Shown: positions 25,631-61,670 of the stretch, in pieces
Numbering within the stretch: position 1 is the first letter of the stretch
Layout: the number at the start of each line of letters is the position of its first letter
Made by a program: the position numbers and the translations under genes
The notes under the pieces: generated by a model
Databases searched by the model: none
The model's input: the letters and a program-made list of their open reading frames with translations, nothing else
Told to the model about the DNA's origin: nothing
Source of the DNA: Bacillota bacterium
GTDB lineage: Bacteria > Bacillota_I > Bacilli_A > RF39 > UBA660
Assembly (NCBI GenBank): GCA_015059305.1
Contig: SVAQ01000002.1
Location: forward strand, 124,001-188,000
Direction of reading: 5' to 3'
Length of the DNA: 64,000 nucleotides

Positions 25631-28009
25631 TTATACCTTACTAACATTAATAATTTTACTACCTTTAATCATTTGATTTCCAACAGAACCTCTATTAAGT
25701 TCAGGTATCTCACTTGCCGAAATACATAAATTTGTATTATTTCCGCAAATAAGTATATCATCTTCTGCAGATACTAATGCTCCACAAACAACATTACCAG
25801 TTATTTCAGTTGGTTTATAACAAATTAATCCTTTACCTGCTCTCTTTTGGAGAGGAAGTTCATTAATTAAAATCTTTTTTGCTAAACCATTTTCCGCAAA
25901 AATTGCTATATCATCAGAACTATTTCTAATAGGCATTCCGGCAACTACATAATCATTTTCTTTTAATGTAATACCTTTTACTCCCGCAGTAGTTCTACCA
26001 CTCGCAGAAACTTCTGTAGAATTAAATCTAATACCCATACCATTTTGAGTTAATAATACTAATTCTTCATCTTTTACTAAACATACAGATATTAATTCAT
26101 CGCCTTCTTTGATATTGATTGCGGCAATACCTGTTTTCTTTTTAGTTTTAGTATATTCTTCTAATGTTGTTTTCTTTACTACACCATTCTTTGTAATAAA
26201 TAAAACATATTTAGCATCAGTATCTCTATAAATAGAATACATTGTTGTAGGTTCTTCATCAGTTTCCATTGCAATTAATGACTTAATAGACTGACCCTGT
26301 GAAACATTTGTTCCAATAGGAATATCATTTACTAATAAACGATACATGCGACCTTTGTTAGTGAAAATCATTAAATTATCAATTGTGTTTGTTCTAATTA
26401 CCATACTAGTAATATCGTCCTGCGTTTTTACACCCTTTGTATTTCTACGCTGAGTGCGGAAACTACTTGATGGAATTCTCTTAATAAGACCACTTTCAGT
26501 CATTACTACAACACATTTTTCTGGTTCTACAAATTCAATTTCTTTTTCTTCCTTTGTTGCTGCCGCAACCTGAATAATTGTAGAACGTCTTTCATCACCA
26601 TATTTATTTACTAAATTATTATAAATATTAATTAATTCTGGAATTGGATTTTCAAGAATAGTATTTAATTTCTTAATTTCATTTTCTAAACTATTCTTTT
26701 CATTTTCAATTTCTTTTTTTTCTAATTTTGCTAATTTACTTAATTTCATATCAAGAATAGCTTTAGCTTGCATTTCAGTAAGATTATATGCTGCCATTAA
26801 TCTTTCCTTAGCTTCAGCCGCACTTCCGCTACTCTTAATCATCACAATAACATCATCAATATTATTTAATGCTATTAATAAACCATCTAAAATATGAAGT
26901 CTTGCTTTTGCTTTCTTTAATTCAAAATTAGTTTTTCTAATTAAAACATCTTTCTGATGTTCATTATATATTTCAATTAATTGCTTTAAATTAAGTAATC
27001 TTGGTTTCTTATTAACCAATGCTACTTGATTAATGCTATAAGTAGTTTCTAAATCAGTATTTTTAAAGATTTTCGCAATTATTGGTTCAGAACTTACGCC
27101 TTTTGCTAATTCAATTACAAAACGCACACCTTGATGATTACTTTCGTCTCTAATTGAAACTACACCATCAATTTTTCCTTCTTCACATAATTTATCAATT
27201 TCAACAATTAACTTTTCTTTTGATACTTTATATGGAATAGATGTAAATACAATACTATCTTTGCCGGCTTTGGTTTCAATAGTATATTCACCTCTAATTC
27301 GTGCGCGCCCCTTACCTGTCAAATACGCAGTTGGAAGTTCATCTTTATTGATAATTGTTCCACCTGTTGGAAAATCTGGACCTTTTACATATTCTAATAA
27401 ATCATTGACTTTACAATCTGGATTCTGTAAAATATGCTTTGCTGCTTCCATAATTTCATTTAAGTTATGTGGAGCAAATGAGCAAGCCATTGCTACCGCG
27501 ATTCCAGAAGTACCATTAACTAAAAGATTTGGAAAATATGCTGGAAGATAAACTGGTTCTTCTTCATCGTCTGTATATGCTAACTGCCAATCAATAGTAT
27601 CTTTCTTGATATCAGCTAACATTTCTTCTCCAATTTTAGATAATTTACATTCTGTATAACGCATTGACGCAGGTTCATCACCATCTCTACTACCGTTATT
27701 TCCATGGAATGAAATTAATGGATATCTCATATTCCAAGGTTGCGATAACCATACTAATGCTCCATAGATAGAACTATCTCCATGCGGATGGAAACGACCC
27801 ATGGTATCACCGACCGGCTGCGCGCATTTTACAAACTTTTTATCATTCTTCCAACCTTTATCGAACATATCCCAAAGGATTCTTCTTGCTACTGGCTTTA
27901 AACCATCTTCTGTGGAAGGAAGTGCTCTATCTGTAATTACACTTAAACCATAATCTAAAAAACTTTGTTCTACTTCCGCAATAATAGGCGTTTCTATAAT
28001 ATTACTCAT
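25631..28009 (-). CDS. gyrA: DNA gyrase subunit A
   Basis: The 792-aa protein is a type IIA topoisomerase A subunit. The catalytic tyrosine is in PASMRYTECKLS, and the N-terminus has GLKPVARRILWDMF. The C-terminal domain has blade repeats and a gyrase-box-like QRRNTKGVK, which favours gyrase over topoisomerase IV. With GyrB at 29502-31412 the phage has its own supercoiling enzyme. No TAG codons. Confidence 0.9.
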   Translation of the reverse strand: MSNIIETPIIAEVEQSFLDYGLSVITDRALPSTEDGLKPVARRILWDMFDKGWKNDKKFVKCAQPVGDTMGRFHPHGDSSIYGALVWLSQPWNMRYPLISFHGNNGSRDGDEPASMRYTECKLSKIGEEMLADIKKDTIDWQLAYTDDEEEPVYLPAYFPNLLVNGTSGIAVAMACSFAPHNLNEIMEAAKHILQNPDCKVNDLLEYVKGPDFPTGGTIINKDELPTAYLTGKGRARIRGEYTIETKAGKDSIVFTSIPYKVSKEKLIVEIDKLCEEGKIDGVVSIRDESNHQGVRFVIELAKGVSSEPIIAKIFKNTDLETTYSINQVALVNKKPRLLNLKQLIEIYNEHQKDVLIRKTNFELKKAKARLHILDGLLIALNNIDDVIVMIKSSGSAAEAKERLMAAYNLTEMQAKAILDMKLSKLAKLEKKEIENEKNSLENEIKKLNTILENPIPELINIYNNLVNKYGDERRSTIIQVAAATKEEKEIEFVEPEKCVVVMTESGLIKRIPSSSFRTQRRNTKGVKTQDDITSMVIRTNTIDNLMIFTNKGRMYRLLVNDIPIGTNVSQGQSIKSLIAMETDEEPTTMYSIYRDTDAKYVLFITKNGVVKKTTLEEYTKTKKKTGIAAINIKEGDELISVCLVKDEELVLLTQNGMGIRFNSTEVSASGRTTAGVKGITLKENDYVVAGMPIRNSSDDIAIFAENGLAKKILINELPLQKRAGKGLICYKPTEITGNVVCGALVSAEDDILICGNNTNLCISASEIPELNRGSVGNQMIKGSKIINVSKV

Positions 28010-45581: not shown

Positions 45582-45986
45582 TTATACCTCGCCTAAATCA
45601 TTTTTTTCTTTACAATAATCACAAACACAACTTCCAAAAACTCCAAGAGGAATGGGATAAAATTCATAATGATAATCAAGCCATTTTCTATCTGGATGTT
45701 TTTGTTTTAAGTGTTCATCAATCCATTTTTTATTTTTTTCTCTATTTGCGGAACTAATTATAAATGCTGTATTAAGCTTTTTTCTTAATTTTACATTTTC
45801 TTCTTCCACTTTTTTTACATATTCATTATCTCTTAATAATTGATTTTCTTCTTCAAGTTTTTCACTTTTTATTTTCCATTTATCAATAAGATAATTCATA
45901 TTATATTCTAAAAACTCTATAACTTCGGAAGGTTCAGTATAAACCTCCCGAAAGCTACGACCATTTTCAAATCTCTGAACTTTCAT
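45582..45986 (-). CDS. Coiled-coil protein with a C-terminal CxxC
   Basis: The 134-aa product has a coiled coil (residues 40-75), then a conserved-looking end with WLDYHYEFYPIPLGVFGSCV and CDYCKEKN. The start ATG is 7 nt after AGGAG and overlaps the RNA ligase end. It may bind zinc or interact with the ligase. No family recognised. Confidence 0.6.
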   Translation of the reverse strand: MKVQRFENGRSFREVYTEPSEVIEFLEYNMNYLIDKWKIKSEKLEEENQLLRDNEYVKKVEEENVKLRKKLNTAFIISSANREKNKKWIDEHLKQKHPDRKWLDYHYEFYPIPLGVFGSCVCDYCKEKNDLGEV

Positions 45987-47385
45987 CAATAGTCTCCTGT
46001 GCTTCTTCCATATCTGGCATTAATGCATCCGCTTTGACAATTCCTTCGAGAACTTTGAAGCTAAAGTTTTTATGCTTATATGCTGCAAATTTTGGTCTAT
46101 TTATAATTCTTACAACTACACCTTCCCGCACATGGGTTCTACCAATTGGGTCAGGTCCATCGTAATACTGTTCTGCTACACTCTTAACCCAGTCTCCAGC
46201 ATTTTCCCCTTCTCTAAGTATAATTCTGTGACCAGGAATAGTAGAATCAATGTCATCTACTGTATAAGGAATGTATCCTTTCCACATAACAGGCACTGTC
46301 TTTACACCCATCTGCTCGCATCTATATCTCATATAATCAGGAGTTAATTCCATTACATAACCATCTTCATTAGTCATTGTCATTCGATATACATAAATGT
46401 CAGACTGAGGTTTGTCTGGATCTTGTCCTCTATTTTCTCTCCATGCTTGTTCCGCACAGTCACAACCATAAGAGAAAGTAGTCACTTCACCATATTTCTT
46501 AATAAACTCTTTATCTTGAGTTTTTCTATTATCACAAGAACCCATAATAGGAGTTCCATTATCGGTAAAACCAACAACTTCATAATAAACAGTTTCACCC
46601 TTATAAAGCTTTCCTTCAAACATTTTTGCATGCGGTTCTCTAAATGCATCACTACCATAGAAAGAAGTTGTTCTATTTTCAAAATCATCTACAACAGTTC
46701 TACGAGTTCCAGACACATAGCCCCAATCATAGATTGGAGTTCCTTCTCTCTTTAAGAGTCTATCTAAAATAGATCTTTTATAACCAATTAATTTTGGTAA
46801 GTAAGCAGTTCTTTGAGAAGTTCCATGCATCTTTAATGTGATTTCAATTTCATCTCCCGCTTTGAAAGCATCAAGATTATATGCTAATTGTTCAGTATCA
46901 GCATGTTCTTTGAATAAAGGAGCAATTAGGCGCTTGGTCTTGCGGGTCTTATTACCGCCAGCGCGCACCTTCATTGGATTTTCTCTTGGAATATACTTTT
47001 TACAAATTTCATGTCCATTAAAGACATTAATTGTATTTCCAATATTTAAAGTAGAAATATCTCCAAAAGAAGAAAGGGATTCTAGTGGCATTACTAAACC
47101 ATCAGATTTTTCACCTCTTAATTTAATTGCTTTGATGTTTCTTTTATCTGGGTCTAAATATCCACCGGAATATGTTCCATCTTCATTCTTGATTCTTATA
47201 AGATTATTGATTTCCGCATATTCTTTAGATAATTGTCCATCTGTTGGAAAATAGAGAATTACATCTTCCTCTTGCGCGTCAAGGCCTACACAAACAGTAT
47301 TGCCGAAACAGTCTGCTAAAAGCATTCTATCAGCATTAGGGTGCGGCCGCACATTTTTTAATTTAGTTACATATGCCTAATACAT
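45967..47385 (-). CDS. DraRnl-type RNA ligase (TAG at codon 3)
   Basis: The 472-aa protein begins MYQAYVTKLKNVRPHPNADR once TAG (47377-47379) is read as Gln, giving the N-terminal OB-like domain of DraRnl/Rnl5 ligases. The nucleotidyltransferase motif I is TLKMHGTSQRTA (lysine nucleophile), with downstream motifs VYYEVVGFTDNG and VREGVVVRIINRPKFAAYKHKN. This family seals nicks with 3'-OH and 5'-phosphate RNA strands in duplexes. It could join tRNA halves in this genome. A TAG at codon 3 makes its start depend on the suppressor. Confidence 0.85.
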
Positions 47386-48164
47386 TATTCTTCATCCCCT
47401 TTCTCAATCTTTACATATTTCCATTTATATCCCATATAAGAACTTTTCTTATTAATAGCATGAATAATTCTTTTTCTAATATTTTCAGATTTAACATTAG
47501 AATTTGGTGATGTTGTTAATATTTCTTTTACAACACATTCAGTAGCTTCTGTTAAACTAATATAATCAGTATATCCATAACCTTTTTTATTTCTTCTAAC
47601 ACCCATTTCTGTTTTAATAACAAATGGAGAACAAGGTAATGAATATTTTTTTGGTAAAACTTTATATAATTCTTTTAAAGCTAGCGCATCCTCAAGAGCA
47701 TCATGACACTGCTCCCAAGCTGTTTCCGAGGTTTTAAAATAATTTAATGCCTGGATTAAAGAAATACTATCTTTAAAGAAATGATTTACTTTCTTGGTAA
47801 AATCTTTCAAAGACATAGCCATAGCCGCAAGAATCATATAAGAATCAGTTGTTTCGCAAGTTTGTGCTGAAGCCTGAATAAATGAATGATCCGCATTTCC
47901 ATAGCAATAAAAAGTAGTATCTTTCCAAGAAAAATGTTCCTGCGTATTGATAAGCCAATTATAAAAAATCATAATTGCTTCATCAATTAAAGGAGAATCT
48001 TCTACCATTTTATTTGTAATATGCGTTAATCCCGTAATAAATGGGTCAATAGGTGTAGTTGGTTTAACATACATTTTAAAACAATCATTTTTTTCAGAAA
48101 CGCAACCTATTTCAATGATTTCATTCGTCGGACTATTGGCTTCAAAATCAATAAAATATTTCAT
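47385..48164 (-). CDS. DEDD-family 3'-5' exonuclease
   Basis: The 259-aa protein has ExoI (YFIDFEANSPTNEIIEIG), ExoII (ITNKMVEDSPLI...YCYGNADHSF) and ExoIII (EQCHDALEDALALKELY) motifs of DnaQ-like exonucleases. It may proofread for the DnaE-type polymerase or process RNA. The start follows AAAGGA. Its stop overlaps the RNA ligase start (TAATG). Confidence 0.8.
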   Translation of the reverse strand: MKYFIDFEANSPTNEIIEIGCVSEKNDCFKMYVKPTTPIDPFITGLTHITNKMVEDSPLIDEAIMIFYNWLINTQEHFSWKDTTFYCYGNADHSFIQASAQTCETTDSYMILAAMAMSLKDFTKKVNHFFKDSISLIQALNYFKTSETAWEQCHDALEDALALKELYKVLPKKYSLPCSPFVIKTEMGVRRNKKGYGYTDYISLTEATECVVKEILTTSPNSNVKSENIRKRIIHAINKKSSYMGYKWKYVKIEKGDEE

Positions 48165-48177
48165 TAAAAATCCTTTC

Positions 48178-48330
48178 TTATAAAACAAATGCAGTTAAAT
48201 AAACATAAACTATTAATCCTACTATAACTGCGAACCAGCGATATTTTTCTTCTTTTGGCATTTCATCATTTTCAACAACACAAGCCATAAAGAAACTTAA
48301 AAAGAAAGCTATCACTAATACATGAATCAT
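48178..48330 (-). CDS. Small two-span membrane protein
   Basis: The product is 50 aa with two hydrophobic helices (about residues 3-17 and 32-48) around a charged loop (ENDEMPKEEKY). A GGAG site lies 7 nt before the ATG. It stands first behind the promoter at 48361-48389. It is too small for routine calling; function unknown. Confidence 0.6.
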   Translation of the reverse strand: MIHVLVIAFFLSFFMACVVENDEMPKEEKYRWFAVIVGLIVYVYLTAFVL

Positions 48331-50128: not shown

Positions 50129-51919
50129 TTATCCAACTAAAGCATCAAGATAATCAGAATATTTTTCACTATGATAATATTCATATAATTTTTCCATTAT
50201 TACTTGTAAGAAATATTCTGGAGTAATAATATTTTTAAATAATGTTTCATCTTGTGAAAATTCTGGTATTAAAGTTTTTAATATTTTAGTTTTTTCACTT
50301 GGAAGATAATCATTATTAACAATATACCTATATTGAGTTAAGAATTTTTTAATATCTTCTGAAAGAATTGATTTATTAGACATAGCAATAATTTGTTCTT
50401 CAATCATATAAATATTTGAATCCATTTTTATAAATTGTTCAATTAATGATAAAAGATTATTAGTTTTACTAAAATTAAAACAAAATATAGAGGCACTAAT
50501 ATTAAACAATAAAATATCTTCAATAGTAAATTGATTATATAAAATTATTATTTTTTCCCATAATAAATTATCCCATATATGATTATTTAGCCATTTATTT
50601 TCTAACTGAATAAAATATGATAATAATTTATAAACATTTAATTGTTGTTTTTTGTAAAGCATTTTTTTTGCTTCCAAAGGTAACGAGAAATGAGGTAAAT
50701 TTATACTATAAATTTGTATAGCATGCATTTCAGAAGATTGAGATACATCTAAATAACAAAAATTAATATTTAAATAAGAAGATAATTTTTTATAATAATT
50801 TAATATATCTTCATTTGAATAATTTTTATCCTGATTAAATAAAAATATTTTTGAATTAGGGGAATAAAATTTTTTTTCACTTAATAAAAAACTTTCATTT
50901 AAACAAAGAGAATTAGTGACATTTGCTGTAGCGTCTAAAGCTTCTATAATAGTTACTCCACTTTTATAAGGAACAATAATATTATTTGATTGTTCTTCTT
51001 CTTTAAAAGAAACAACTCCTTGATATAATTCTGTTAATGTTCTTTCTAAAGCAATATCAAAAATAGGAAAAGAACCAAAATTAATAAAAAATCTTTGTAA
51101 AGTTTTATCAATTAAAATAGATAATAAAACAGGTACATTAAAATTATAAGAAAAATCAATTAAATAATATTCATAGTTTTCATTATCTGTTAATAATTTT
51201 ATCTTTTCTTTTAATTTTTGGTTTTTAATAGTTGAAATATCTATAAAATGAAAATCAAAATCTTTTTTTAAATAACGAAATTTATCTGTAATATAATGTT
51301 CGTAAAGTTCTGAAATGCCTTGATTTAAAGCTTCTTCTAATGTATTTCCAGCAGCCATTCCGCCAGATCCTCTTAACACTGTCATTAAATATGGGTTATA
51401 AAAATATTGTTTATTTGAATCTAATAAATCTTGATAAGGCGCAGCAATAAATTTATTATTAAAAAGTGTATTATAAAAATTAATAATATCAGAATCTTTT
51501 TCAGAAAAATCTCCTAAGAAAAAATTATGAAAATTTTGATCGGCATTAATTAATTCTATTAAAGAAAATTCTTTTTCTTCTGGATGATAATAATAATTAT
51601 ATTTTTGTTTTCTTTTTTGTAAAAATAAATTTTGAGCAATACCATCTTTCATAATAAATCTCATATTACAGAAACGTTCATATAATTCGCCATAAGCAGA
51701 GGCAATTGCAAATTCTTCTGTTTCACCTTTACCATTAGCGTATAAAATTAAAAAATCATTTTTATCAAATAATATTATTTGTATTGAATAAGTATTTATT
51801 TCACTAATCATAACTTCATTTCTTTTAATTTTCATATTGAGATTTAAAAAAAAGTTTTCTATAATTTTTATTGTTTCCTCTGGTTTTCGTTCTTTATAAT
51901 GATTTTTATAATTTATCAT
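50129..51919 (-). CDS. YcaO-family protein
   Basis: The 596-aa protein has the YcaO ATP-binding motifs: NGKGETEEFAIASAYGELYER near residues 63-83 and GMAAGNTLEEALNQGISELYEHY near 187-209. YcaO enzymes activate amide bonds with ATP to make azolines, thioamides or amidines in peptides and proteins. The C-terminal 250 residues are helical and unlike other parts of the family. It is translationally coupled to a kinase-like gene upstream (14-bp overlap), with its own promoter and terminator. No TAG in this gene, although its partner has five. Confidence 0.82.
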   Translation of the reverse strand: MINYKNHYKERKPEETIKIIENFFLNLNMKIKRNEVMISEINTYSIQIILFDKNDFLILYANGKGETEEFAIASAYGELYERFCNMRFIMKDGIAQNLFLQKRKQKYNYYYHPEEKEFSLIELINADQNFHNFFLGDFSEKDSDIINFYNTLFNNKFIAAPYQDLLDSNKQYFYNPYLMTVLRGSGGMAAGNTLEEALNQGISELYEHYITDKFRYLKKDFDFHFIDISTIKNQKLKEKIKLLTDNENYEYYLIDFSYNFNVPVLLSILIDKTLQRFFINFGSFPIFDIALERTLTELYQGVVSFKEEEQSNNIIVPYKSGVTIIEALDATANVTNSLCLNESFLLSEKKFYSPNSKIFLFNQDKNYSNEDILNYYKKLSSYLNINFCYLDVSQSSEMHAIQIYSINLPHFSLPLEAKKMLYKKQQLNVYKLLSYFIQLENKWLNNHIWDNLLWEKIIILYNQFTIEDILLFNISASIFCFNFSKTNNLLSLIEQFIKMDSNIYMIEEQIIAMSNKSILSEDIKKFLTQYRYIVNNDYLPSEKTKILKTLIPEFSQDETLFKNIITPEYFLQVIMEKLYEYYHSEKYSDYLDALVG

Positions 51920-52984: not shown

Positions 52985-53075
52985 TGGCGGCCCCGCTGGG
53001 ATTCGAACCCAGATTACCCTTTCAGAGAGTATAACGGATTTAGAGTCCGGCGTTTTACCATTAGACTACGGAGCT
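52985..53075 (-). tRNA. Amber suppressor tRNA, anticodon CTA
   Basis: Cloverleaf with T-arm CTGGG-TTCGAAT-CCCAG, encoded CCA and anticodon loop CTCTAAA, so the anticodon is CTA and reads UAG. A long variable region lies between anticodon and T arms. First acceptor pair A-C is mismatched. D-arm TAGTCTAATGGTA looks glutamine-like. It supplies the Gln reading of TAG, though charging identity is inferred from proteins and not from tRNA identity elements. Confidence 0.82.
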
Positions 53076-53081
53076 TTAATA

Positions 53082-53239
53082 CTAGACTCAAAAGAATTTA
53101 ACAGTTTTTATTAGCGTTATTATCCCTGTTTTTCTTACTATCAAATAATAACAACAGTGAAAGCGTGTCACCAGCACATTTTCTGTAGAGTTTATATATT
53201 GCCTAAACAAGTTTTATAATTTTGCTGTATTGAGTCTTA
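53082..53239 (-). ncRNA. ACAGCAAA stem element enclosing a ~140-nt structured RNA
   Basis: Outer stem AGACTCA (53231-53237) with TGAGTCT (53084-53090). ATACAGCAAAA follows the 5' strand. The interior has no tRNA features but has hairpins such as the ACAGG...CTGTT region. It lies between the tmRNA ribozyme and the suppressor tRNA. Function unknown. Confidence 0.5.
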
Positions 53240-54125: not shown

Positions 54126-54202
54126 TGGTCTGAGTAGCAAGATTCGAACTTGCGGCCTCCTGAACCCAAATCAGGCGCTCTGCCAAACTGAGCTATACCC
54201 AG
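54126..54202 (-). tRNA. tRNA-Pro (TGG)
   Basis: Acceptor CTGGGTA/TACTCAG, anticodon loop TTTGGGT between CCTGA and TCAGG, CCA encoded. Confidence 0.9.
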
Positions 54203-54460: not shown

Positions 54461-55192
54461 TTATGGAATAATTCCAAATCTATCTTCTTCAACATATTTA
54501 TGATGATAAAGATCAATATTTAAAGTTGTATCAATAGCCGCATATCTACAATTAGAAAAATATTGAACCATTTGATTTACAGCTTCGCCCGCAATAATTG
54601 CACATTTATAAGCGGGTTGACTTACTGCTTCTGGAAAAATTTTTTCATTTTTATTTTGATAAATTAATCTATGCGTAATAAAATCAAAATGGCTTAAATC
54701 TTTCATAGTTTCAATATGAACATAACCTCCTAATATATTTATAGGGAAACGAATAATAGGAATATTATATTCAATAATGACTTCTCTTAAAATTGTTCTT
54801 AATTTAAAAATATTATAATTACAATCTGCAGCATCAAAAATAAAATCTACTTTAGATAGTTTCTCTTTATCATCTTCTTTATCTCCAAAATACCAATCAC
54901 AACAAATTAATTCTACTTCTGGATTAATTTGTTGAAGCCTTTCTTTCATAGATAAAGCTTTGTTTTTTTGTAACGTTGGAATTAAACAGCCTATTTGTCT
55001 ATTAAGATTAGATTCTTCAAAATAATCTCCATCCCAAAAAATAATAGATTTAATTCCTAATCGAATAAGAAATTCTAAAGTATATCCACCTTGTCCGCCA
55101 CAACCAATTACTGCAATATTTTTTGTTAATAATTGATTTTGAATTTTTTCTGTTAAATTAAATTCATCAATATTTTCTTTATATCTAATCAT
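54461..55192 (-). CDS. ThiF/MoeB E1-like adenylating protein
   Basis: The 243-aa protein has the E1 nucleotide site AVIGCGGQGGYTLEFL, FWDGDYFEESNLNRQ and the aspartate region DFIFDAADCN. It adenylates a protein or peptide C-terminus or acts as a peptide-binding partner; in azoline-forming systems ThiF-like proteins partner with YcaO. The usual paired CxxC zinc site is not obvious. It is coupled by ATGA to kinase B and ends 4 nt before tRNA-Ile. No TAG codons. Confidence 0.8.
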   Translation of the reverse strand: MIRYKENIDEFNLTEKIQNQLLTKNIAVIGCGGQGGYTLEFLIRLGIKSIIFWDGDYFEESNLNRQIGCLIPTLQKNKALSMKERLQQINPEVELICCDWYFGDKEDDKEKLSKVDFIFDAADCNYNIFKLRTILREVIIEYNIPIIRFPINILGGYVHIETMKDLSHFDFITHRLIYQNKNEKIFPEAVSQPAYKCAIIAGEAVNQMVQYFSNCRYAAIDTTLNIDLYHHKYVEEDRFGIIP

Positions 55193-56142: not shown

Positions 56143-56164
56143 AAGTAACAGAATAAATCAAAAC

Positions 56165-56259
56165 AAGACGCTAGGTTCTTGTGATGGATTCGAACCATCT
56201 AAAAATCTTCTTCAACAAAATTCTATTAACCTAAAATAATTGCTGTATTCTAGCGTCTT
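56165..56259 (-). ncRNA. ACAGCAA stem element with a tRNA T-arm-like hairpin
   Basis: Outer stem AAGACGCTAG (56250-56259) with CTAGCGTCTT (56165-56174), then AATACAGCAATT. The interior has GATGG-TTCGAAT-CCATC, a perfect T arm, but no D or anticodon arm. It may be a degenerate permuted tRNA. Confidence 0.5.
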
Positions 56260-57769: not shown

Positions 57770-57776
57770 ATAATTC

Positions 57777-57907
57777 TAGACACATATTCTTATTAAGCTC
57801 TCCCAATTGAGCTACTTGAGATAAAATCTCAAGGTTGGACTCGAACCAACAACCATTAGTTTTGCAGACTATTTGTAAGAAAAAACCAATTTGCTGTATA
57901 TGCCTAA
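57777..57907 (-). tRNA. Circularly permuted tRNA-Cys (GCA)
   Basis: In transcription order the 3' half comes first (57871-57827: anticodon loop CTGCAAA, T arm GTTGG-TTCGAGT-CCAAC, acceptor CTTGAGA). Next is a 5-nt loop TTTTA, then the 5' half (57821-57795: TCTCAAG, D arm TAGCTCAATTGGGAGAGC, then TT). The acceptor pairs 7 of 7 and T27 pairs with A43 across the break. Flanks pair as an ACAGCAAA stem element (AGGCATAT with ATATGTGTCT, including G-U pairs). No CCA is encoded. Joining 27 to 28 restores a complete tRNA. Confidence 0.8.
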
Positions 57908-57926
57908 AAATTTTTATTATATAAAT

Positions 57927-58277: not shown

Positions 58278-58351
58278 TGGAGTGCTAGGTTGGAGTCGAA
58301 CCAACTCTGATGGTTTTGCAGACCACTTCCTCGCCGCAAAGAATCTAGCAC
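58278..58351 (-). tRNA. tRNA-Cys (GCA), normal order
   Basis: Acceptor GTGCTAG/CTAGCAC, loop CTGCAAA between GTGGT and ACCAT, CCA encoded. A conventional counterpart to the permuted Cys gene. Confidence 0.9.
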
Positions 58352-58355
58352 ATAA

Positions 58356-58429
58356 TGGAGCGGTATGCGGGAATCGAACCCGCGACCCAAGCTTGGAAGG
58401 CTCTTATGTTACCTCTACACCAATACCGC
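58356..58429 (-). tRNA. tRNA-Gly (TCC)
   Basis: Acceptor GCGGTAT/ATACCGC, loop CTTCCAA, CCA encoded. Confidence 0.88.
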
Positions 58430-58438
58430 ATAAAAAAA

Positions 58439-59026
58439 ATGCTAAATGAACCTTCGTTCTACGTCACATATCTTCAAATATATTCAGCCAATAGGGAGTT
58501 AAATCTGAGCCTAGGGGAGCTACCCCAGTGACTTTTTTAACCCAGCTTTAAAAGCCAATGTCCTATGCGGGATTGATTACCCACACCTTTCAGCCACAAT
58601 TCAGTAAATTTCTTGTTAATTCTTCTACAACAAATAAGAACTTTCAAAAATTTGAATTGCAATATAGCCTTGACCTACTCGGACGTTGCGCGCAAATGTT
58701 ATACACAGATTTCTCTGCTTCACGGCCAAACGAGTTGTTGGTATTTCCAAGGATTGATACAGTCACCAGCTAAACCCTAACTTGGATTCGGCTCCGCTAT
58801 TCACAGAGCTTTCTATTGCCTCGCCCATTCGCTTACTGCTTTTATTTGCGATATATGAAATGCTATGCGTTTCGTTTGGGAGTTCTCTCCTCTTCTGGAA
58901 CTTCGTCACCTTAGAACCAGCGGGCCAGTATCAACAGGTATCCCTGCTTCGTTTTCTGCCGACCATTTTCCGCATACCTCAGCCATATCTGCGAGATACA
59001 GTTTAGCACTGAGTTATTTAGCATTT
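58439..59026 (-). ncRNA. Large structured RNA, ROOL/GOLLD-like candidate (588 nt)
   Basis: Ends close as an 11-bp stem (AAATGCTAAAT at 59026-59016 with ATTTAGCATTT), followed by a T-run. The interior has higher GC than its surroundings, many local hairpins and no credible coding frame. Large ornate RNAs of 500-900 nt beside phage tRNAs are a known type (ROOL about 580-600 nt, GOLLD larger). I cannot recall their consensus well enough to prove which. Confidence 0.6.
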
Positions 59027-59033
59027 ATTTTTT

Positions 59034-59093
59034 TGTAAAAGTATCTGTCGAAATCAACTCACACCACGAGAAGGTTCTTTTACATAGTGAGTC
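59034..59093 (-). ncRNA. HDV-like (theta-type) ribozyme 2
   Basis: P1 GACTCAC/GTGAGTT (G-U first pair), P2 TGTAAAAG/CTTTTACA, L3 core AACCTTCTCGTGG, and ATTTCGACAGA before P2'. Stems differ from copies 1 and 3 but keep pairing. It lies between an unknown RNA upstream and the ROOL-like RNA downstream. Confidence 0.78.
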
Positions 59094-60461: not shown

Positions 60462-60537
60462 TGGTGGGATTAGTGAGATTTGAACTCACAACCTCCAATC
60501 TTTCGACCATCGCTCTTCACTTTTGAGCTATAATCCC
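60462..60537 (-). tRNA. tRNA-like gene with an abnormal anticodon arm
   Basis: Acceptor GGGATTA/TAATCCC, D arm and T arm GTGAG-TTCAAAT-CTCAC are normal and CCA is encoded. The anticodon arm reads ATGGTCGAAAGATTGG and best folds as GGTC-GAAA-GATT. If forced into a 7-nt loop the anticodon would be CGA (Ser). Decoding identity is uncertain. Confidence 0.6.
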
Positions 60538-61535: not shown

Positions 61536-61670
61536 AAATTTTGCTAGACACTCAAAATATAATTGCCTTACCAACTAGGCGATCTGTCCAATTTAATGGC
61601 GGACGGAGTGAGACTCGAACTCACGATATATTGTTCCCAATATGTTTTGCTGTAAGTGTCTAGCAAAATT
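61536..61670 (-). tRNA. Second circularly permuted tRNA (anticodon not assigned)
   Basis: In transcription order: 3' half with T arm GTGAG-TTCGAGT-CTCAC, acceptor TCCGTCC, G and CCA (61645-61597), a 7-nt linker TTAAATT, then 5' half GGACAGA with D arm CGCCTAGTTGGTAAGGC (61589-61556). The acceptor pairs 6 of 7. Outside lies a perfect inverted repeat of about 15 bp (TTTTGCTAGACACT and its complement) with TACAGCAAAAC after the 5' strand. The anticodon arm around TTGGGAAC is ambiguous (Pro GGG or Phe GAA possible). Confidence 0.7.

Follow-up and report, generated by a model that had tools for sequence, protein, structure and literature searches.

The permuted tRNA-Cys element described here is very probably a Y RNA of a Ro60-like ribonucleoprotein, whose terminal stem (H1) would sit in the ring of a DUF2828 protein and whose tRNA-shaped head would act as a tether or a decoy. 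The element lies in a stretch of 64,000 nucleotides (the window), which is part of an IMG/VR virus record of 188,323 bp. Its terminal stem, its link to DUF2828, the lack of charging identity across the set of such RNAs, the lack of a bulge-helix-bulge (BHB) signal and the lack of a splicing endonuclease in the virus records searched make a Y RNA, and no spliced tRNA gene, the most likely reading.

A permuted tRNA-Cys-like RNA with pairing flanks

On the minus strand, the order at 57795-57871 and in its flanks is leader, 3' half, TTTTA, 5' half and trailer (Table 1). An earlier account made from the letters alone (the sequence-only reading) had described the 3' half (T arm and anticodon loop) as preceding the 5' half (D arm), the acceptor strands as pairing 7 of 7 around a 5-nt loop, and base 27 as pairing with base 43 across the halves; we found all three, with TTTTA as the loop and U27-A43 as the pair. 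Rejoining the halves did give the full tRNA it had announced, a Cys cloverleaf with an anticodon stem of 5/5 pairs, U33 and R37, and the normal tRNA-Cys it had noted close by was located by ARAGORN at 58278-58351. That reading passed over three features: leader and trailer form a stem, CAGCAA adjoins this stem, and 61539-61668 contains another permuted RNA. The leading T of the TTTTA loop is the Cys discriminator base, and CCA is not encoded. The window's copy thus has U73, but its 1:72 pair is U1-A72, so that this copy alone does not decide chargeability.

An exact-pattern search of viral contigs, from which near relatives of the record may have been excluded, returned no close copies of the window's permuted RNA. 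When the locus was compared with phages by blastn, the best 20 of 47 matches all fell on ordinary tRNA stretches and none covered the permuted RNA.

Table 1. Features of the window discussed in the text (positions in the window).
Feature	Positions	Strand	Remarks
Terminal stem H1, 5' strand	57897..57909	-	TTTTAGGCATATA; 13 pairs, GU included
CAGCAA motif adjoining H1	57891..57896	-	class A signature
3' half of permuted tRNA-Cys mimic	57827..57871	-	nt 28-72: anticodon loop CTGCAAA, variable loop, T arm, 3' acceptor strand
TTTTA loop between acceptor strands	57822..57826	-	closes acceptor stem of 7/7 pairs
5' half of permuted tRNA-Cys mimic	57795..57821	-	nt 1-27: 5' acceptor strand, D arm
Terminal stem H1, 3' strand	57774..57786	-	TATGTGTCTAGAA; pairs with 57897-57909
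Match to Rfam YrlA (RF02553)	57773..57872	-	35.1 bits, E 3.1e-6 in a 301-base search; gathering score 69
Second class A RNA with permuted tRNA mimic	61539..61668	-	acceptor 6/7, long terminal stem, loop starting GCCA
Class A-like stem with ACAGCAA	57136..57209	-	AAGATGGTT/AACCATCTT; tRNA module not seen
Possible further class A RNA	56164..56256	-	ACGCTAG / CTAGCGT stem, ACAGCAA, T-arm-like hairpin
Class A-like stem with ACAGCAA	54296..54370	-	TTAGACAC/GTGTCTAG; tRNA module not seen
Class A-like stem with ACAGCAA, ~150 nt	53084..53237	-	AGACTCAA/TTGAGTCT; tRNA module not seen
DUF2828 + vWA-like (DUF7788) protein, 518 aa	48426..49982	-	predicted Ro60-like fold; proposed partner of the RNA
RNase_T/DnaQ-type exonuclease gene	47385..48188	-	adjoins DUF2828 gene
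RNA ligase gene (PF09414)	45967..47352	-	27.6 bits against a cut-off of 27; next after exonuclease gene

The permuted layout in this phage is no one-off. The pattern 'T arm, short gap, D arm' retrieved at least 120 loci from viral contigs (the motif-blind set), in which at least 37, and in a later scan at least 52, permuted candidates not called by ARAGORN were found, some of them unconvincing. Pooled with two motif-led viral scans and one bacterial genome scan, the survey comprised at least 427 sources and at least 305 permuted candidates. The rejoined anticodon stem was complete (5/5 pairs, with U33 and R37) in 165 of 305 candidates, against 5.9 of 305 with shuffled flanks. Requiring 7/7 acceptor pairs as well left at least 135 high-confidence permuted RNAs in at least 115 sources, the window included; these are cut mostly after nt 26-29, sometimes in or past the anticodon loop, and their anticodons span all twenty isotypes, some only once. 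Running ARAGORN on the rejoined halves was dropped as evidence because shuffled controls also pass (729/915, with 289/305 real candidates).

Two flank classes and a covarying terminal stem

The candidates fall largely into two classes by their flanks. In class A, to which the window's RNA belongs, a terminal stem is followed by ACAGCAA; in class B, UUACUUC or UUACAUC stands ahead of the 3' half. Among 38 confident cases from the motif-blind loci, CAGCAA was present in 12 (0.37 expected) and the class B word in 11 (1.39 expected). The invariance of CAGCAA in the class A set as a whole is by construction, because this word was part of the pattern that retrieved most of its loci. Beside CAGCAA, 133 of 136 class A RNAs form a terminal stem with at least six Watson-Crick pairs; with trailers swapped between RNAs the figure drops to 26.4. 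Each of nine positions shows five or six pair types. For class B, in which a single helix was considered, the corresponding count was 73 of 121 against 14.0. The sequence-only reading had named retention of pairing in relatives as a check: pairing is indeed kept, but as the terminal stem, and the anticodon arm is complete in just 68 of 136 class A RNAs.

Forty-nine of 306 candidates belong to neither class. Some of these, for instance L038 and L094/L105, may represent additional stem classes, perhaps further classes of Y RNA; their leader words, read by eye, are CCTTCT and, after a 5-bp helix, a bulged U and GCU/AGC, GCTTATTTCT.

Class A RNAs co-occur with DUF2828 and class B RNAs with TROVE

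We compared the open reading frames of eight class A genomes with those of three class B genomes and three controls. A family of ~520 aa (DUF2828 + DUF7788) was present in 6/8 class A genomes and in 0/6 of the others. A second family had an equal pattern (6/8 versus 0/6); it is multi-copy, with members of 76-343 aa (e.g. L450:12794-13150).

At E<=0.001, PF11443 (DUF2828) was matched in a first set by 14/17 class A records, 0/18 class B records and 1/15 tRNA-bearing controls. In a second set, for which the class labels had been fixed in advance by a stem/flank rule, the counts were 21/25, 0/19 and 1/6, that is, 21/25 class A records versus 1/25 others. At the same threshold the two sets together gave 35/42 class A, 0/37 class B and 2/21 controls, and 33/42 class A records scored above Pfam's own cut-off. 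The whole-set Fisher value of 1e-17 overstates independence, since virus records may be fragments and related. The seven of 42 class A records with no DUF2828 match are likewise possibly fragments. The two DUF2828-positive controls were G046, in which two class A RNAs turned up away from the initial locus, and G095; the second-set control L165 has an unclassified candidate.

TROVE/Ro60 (PF05731) showed the opposite distribution: 18/18 class B, 0/17 class A and 0/15 tRNA-bearing controls in the first set, and 17/19, 1/25 and 0/6 in the second. Over both sets it was found in 35/37 class B records, in 34/37 above Pfam's cut-off. The single TROVE-positive class A record (L194) lacks DUF2828 and also carries a class B candidate.

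The association extends to bacteria. Among bacterial genome contigs retrieved with nothing but the RNA pattern, a DUF2828 gene was present in 29 of 36 within fetched stretches of at most 8 kb; those with the gene include Treponema saccharophilum, T. bryantii, T. zioleckii, Akkermansia, Clostridia and other MAGs. Across the fetched viral and bacterial loci, an HMM of the DUF2828 family matched 38/105 class A loci, 3/83 loci with class B only, 2/23 with other candidates and 29/136 without a candidate, many of the last also having been fetched through the CAGCAA pattern. The three matches in class-B-only loci are weak (22.7-27.7 bits) and are probably cross-matches to TROVE proteins, as judged from the position checked for L390. 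A Capsulimonas MAG contig of 5.4 kb (L410) carries permuted RNAs, one with CAGCAA, with the DUF2828 gene not in view.

The DUF2828 protein resembles Ro60

In the window, the DUF2828 gene lies 7.8 kb from the permuted RNA, in the same record and on the same strand. Its product is, on the evidence of a predicted structure, a protein like the human autoantigen Ro60, with a MIDAS-bearing vWA domain, and no TROVE ortholog. The AlphaFold model (pLDDT 86.4, pTM 0.86) gave 10 matches in the PDB at E<=0.001, all of them to Ro60/TROVE, with a loose superposition (TM 0.42-0.56, rmsd 7-11). A profile search of the PDB placed Ro60 (1yvp) on top, though weakly (E 0.0069) and shortly ahead of other vWA proteins, and the first match of an HMM built from 15 DUF2828 proteins, beyond its members, was a TROVE protein from class B (E 3.7e-4). 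Residues D314, S316, S318, T383 and D415 are invariant in 37 sequences, and we read them as a MIDAS.

The DUF2828 protein thus shares with Ro60/TROVE proteins (1yvr, 2nvo and 9l5y, the last from Thermus phage phiLo) the overall fold, a vWA domain, MIDAS-type residues and a length of ~520 aa. In contrast, identity to them is 11-15%, Pfam assigns DUF2828 + DUF7788 instead, and the window's record has no match to PF05731. Of 50,697 phage records, 667 have the family by tblastn, those of FelixO1, P100 and Bacillus phage FADO among them; several mycobacteriophage records already annotate a member as 'Ro-like RNA binding protein'.

Relation to YrlA and other Y RNAs

With a permissive threshold, the Rfam model of YrlA matched 19 of 20 other loci (E 3e-8 to 0.2; best score 49.9, against a gathering score of 69), and the match compared overlapped a permuted candidate in 14 of these 19. 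The second RNA of the window scored 24.7 bits (E 0.0026). With 35.1 and 24.7 bits, both of the window's RNAs fall below the gathering score and were therefore filed as Y RNA-like, not as members of YrlA. In the Rfam alignment, the T and D arms of the YrlA consensus flank a closed acceptor stem, with the T arm first.

YrlA (RF02553), whose partners are Rsr/Ro60, and the window-type RNAs have in common the long stem pairing the ends, the permuted T/acceptor/D module and a Ro60-like protein in the genome. They differ in that the window-type RNA has an ACAGCAA stem and a DUF2828 partner in place of TROVE, and in that a full anticodon arm, frequent in window-type RNAs, is not shown by the YrlA consensus. 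According to PMC8394870, YrlA mimics tRNA, its basal stem binding Rsr and its tRNA-like domain binding PNPase. The sequence-only reading knew of no described phage counterpart, which was wrong in substance: T before D is the YrlA-type order, and PMC12282133 states that Y RNAs have been identified in mycobacteriophages and bacteria. Our literature search, which did not extend to bioRxiv preprints, found no paper on phage-borne permuted tRNAs. As far as that search shows, both the stem class tied to DUF2828 and the full anticodon arms are new, though either may already be described in the Y RNA literature or in a preprint.

CAGCAA stems around DUF2828 genes of named phages

Within 1.1 kb of the DUF2828 gene and on its strand, we found 18 CAGCAA stems in seven of 11 named phages (P100, 3; FelixO1, 4; Loadrie, 3; CP81, 2; EfaM_A2, 2; S-CoN_Ph9, 3; FADO, 1), where simple arithmetic from a control rate of 0.53 per 10 kb gives ~2 expected on both strands. 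In the other four (ValKK3, PX29, CBB and phiM12), the same distance and strand yielded no stem. Stems lie farther off in phiM12 (1.9-8.2 kb) and in ValKK3 and PX29 (8.7-9.9 kb), distances at which chance matches are possible. One or two stems carry the permuted tRNA module in FelixO1, Loadrie, FADO, EfaM_A2 and phiM12, some with a variant of the motif.

In P100, three class A stems lie 74-283 bp upstream of the DUF2828 gene, and our scans found no tRNA module at any of them. The stem therefore seems to be the constant part, with the tRNA head one of several heads. For the Listeria phage CKA15, PMC12282133 reports three regions with very high transcription and no apparent coding content, all on the strand of an Rsr-like gene and no more than 2 kb upstream of it. 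Y RNAs are one of the explanations its authors offer, and the Rsr-like protein was found in purified particles. The layout of these putative Y RNAs resembles that of the upstream stems in the related P100; the passages on the CKA15 regions contain no RNA structure. The strongest of the CKA15 regions (26,236-26,727) is probably not these stems. In P100, ~650 nt upstream of the Ro-like gene (L561:6413-7072) are free of annotated genes and possibly correspond to this most transcribed region.

Charging, splicing and alternative explanations

Permuted tRNA genes are known from algae and archaea, where the order of the halves and the short loop between the acceptor strands are the same as here. A true circularly permuted tRNA gene of this kind, in which leader and trailer are trimmed off, a phage or host RNA ligase seals the ends, and RNase P together with 3' processing opens the loop to yield a decoding tRNA, would account for the excess of complete rejoined anticodon stems, for the twenty isotypes, for the Cys discriminator U of the window's copy and for the RNA ligase gene in its phage; we nevertheless consider it very unlikely. 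The charging end of these RNAs does not behave like that of tRNAs. For the 148 RNAs whose anticodon stem is complete, chance alone would give 39.3+-5.4 discriminators and 44.9+-5.4 1:72 pairs that fit the isotype consensus. The numbers seen were 48 and 49, compared with 2104 and 1660 of 2432 ordinary tRNAs, respectively. The acceptor loop begins with NCCA in 24 of 257 RNAs, as a permuted gene might have it, and is a UUCG or GNRA tetraloop in 18 of 257. An A34 outside ACG anticodons occurs in 10/149 permuted RNAs versus 35/2432 ordinary tRNAs. The anticodon loop, on the other hand, is identical to a common loop of ordinary tRNAs in 71/149 (control 8.7%); with loops kept and identity elements at chance, it is the anticodon arm that is preserved and the charging end that is not.

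Nor does the processing machinery fit. The circular intermediate and BHB splice put forward by the sequence-only reading find no counterpart in the data: in a relaxed test confined to the central helix, BHB-like pairing was seen in 11/53 class A RNAs (10.1 in swapped controls) and 7/62 class B RNAs (9.2), and tRNA splicing endonuclease (PF01974) in 0/50 virus records searched. RtcB (6/35 permuted-RNA records versus 1/15 controls) and RNA ligase PF09414 (16/35 versus 8/15) were both rejected as a universal processing enzyme, neither being enriched. In lacking BHB signal, isotype identity and a virus-record endonuclease, and in their taxa, the window-type RNAs differ from the algal and archaeal genes; half of class A is without a full anticodon arm, and the window already encodes an ordinary tRNA-Cys. 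The RNA is thus probably not spliced. A self-splicing or permuted group I intron was also discarded, the flanks being too short (100 nt between the 3' half and tRNA-Met, 25 nt between the 5' half and tRNA-Asn) and ribozyme families absent among the Rfam matches. A functionless relic of tandem tRNA duplication, joining the end of one copy to the start of the next, would suit a locus surrounded by 21 ordinary tRNA genes in a 9.3-kb stretch, but it is already contradicted by the covarying terminal stems and by the recurrence of the motif beside one gene family, both in bacteria and in phages that infect many hosts, and is exceedingly improbable. What is left, and best supported, is the last alternative of the sequence-only reading, 'an RNA with another role'.

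Within the Y RNA reading, the RNAs that keep the arm may lure away host anticodon nucleases, or other toxins that read the anticodon, while displayed on the ring or shielded by it; we regard this decoy sub-case as possible though rather doubtful. It would agree with the retention of loop and stem in RNAs that lack charging identity, and PMC7790460 raises a competitive inhibitor of anticodon nuclease as one possibility for Salmonella YrlA. Against it stand the half of class A RNAs that have no full arm, the degenerate look of the loop in FelixO1 and FADO (by eye) and a spread of isotypes that shows no focus on one nuclease. Conversely, the anticodon loops are conserved better than a bare scaffold needs, which counts against a plain Y RNA.

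Proposed mechanism and meaning

In the Y RNA model, the ends of the RNA pair into H1, which carries the ACAGCAA strand and would be held by the phage's DUF2828 ring protein. The head is a tRNA-shaped module (loop-closed acceptor stem, T arm, D arm and anticodon arm) from which H1 leaves at the 27/28 nick. A Y RNA whose ends lie in a stem must have the T-before-D order, so that the 'permutation' needs no splicing. Most likely the RNA would serve as an uncharged tRNA look-alike, either as a tether that recruits an enzyme acting on tRNA or other RNA, or as a decoy that soaks such an enzyme up. We place a tether, the role described for Rsr-Y RNA-PNPase (PMC8394870), slightly ahead of an anticodon decoy. 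The exonuclease and RNA ligase genes follow the Ro-like gene in the window, and the P100 and CBB records list nearby RNA ligases.

The pair of DUF2828 and class A RNA recurs in many phages and some bacteria. A widespread phage family thereby gains a proposed RNA partner, a structural class and a clean prediction, and phage 'permuted tRNA genes' found by software or by eye may often be Y RNAs. Whole anticodon arms of twenty isotypes that lack charging identity pose a sharp question, possibly one of phage defence against tRNA-targeting immunity. More speculatively, and on balance unlikely, DUF2828 rings with sets of tRNA look-alikes, their anticodon arms functional but their charging identity absent, could be an RNA shield with which many phages take up or divert anticodon nucleases and other tRNA-targeting defences, and a Ro60/Y RNA branch parallel to TROVE/YrlA and specialised in anticodon display.

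Other elements in the window

The anticodon of the second permuted RNA is ambiguous, being TGG/Pro (4/5 stem pairs) or TTT/Lys depending on the scoring. The possible class A RNA at 56164..56256 was identified by eye with hand-counted coordinates, and an automated stem scan paired the region differently. Besides the 21 ordinary tRNAs, which include a tRNA-Pro at 54126-54202, ARAGORN reported a tmRNA; a further tRNA at 60465-60537 (-), which it missed, was matched by Rfam with 46.9 bits. A tRNA with anticodon CTA at 52985-53075 (-), labelled Pyl by ARAGORN, is a possible amber suppressor. Genes of the YcaO (50129-51919) and ThiF (54461-55192) families, both on the minus strand, may form a peptide-modifying pair; the former adjoins the Ro-like (DUF2828) gene. 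Within the tRNA array, beside tRNA-Gly, lies a ROOL RNA at 58429-59037 (-), matched by Rfam with 337 bits.
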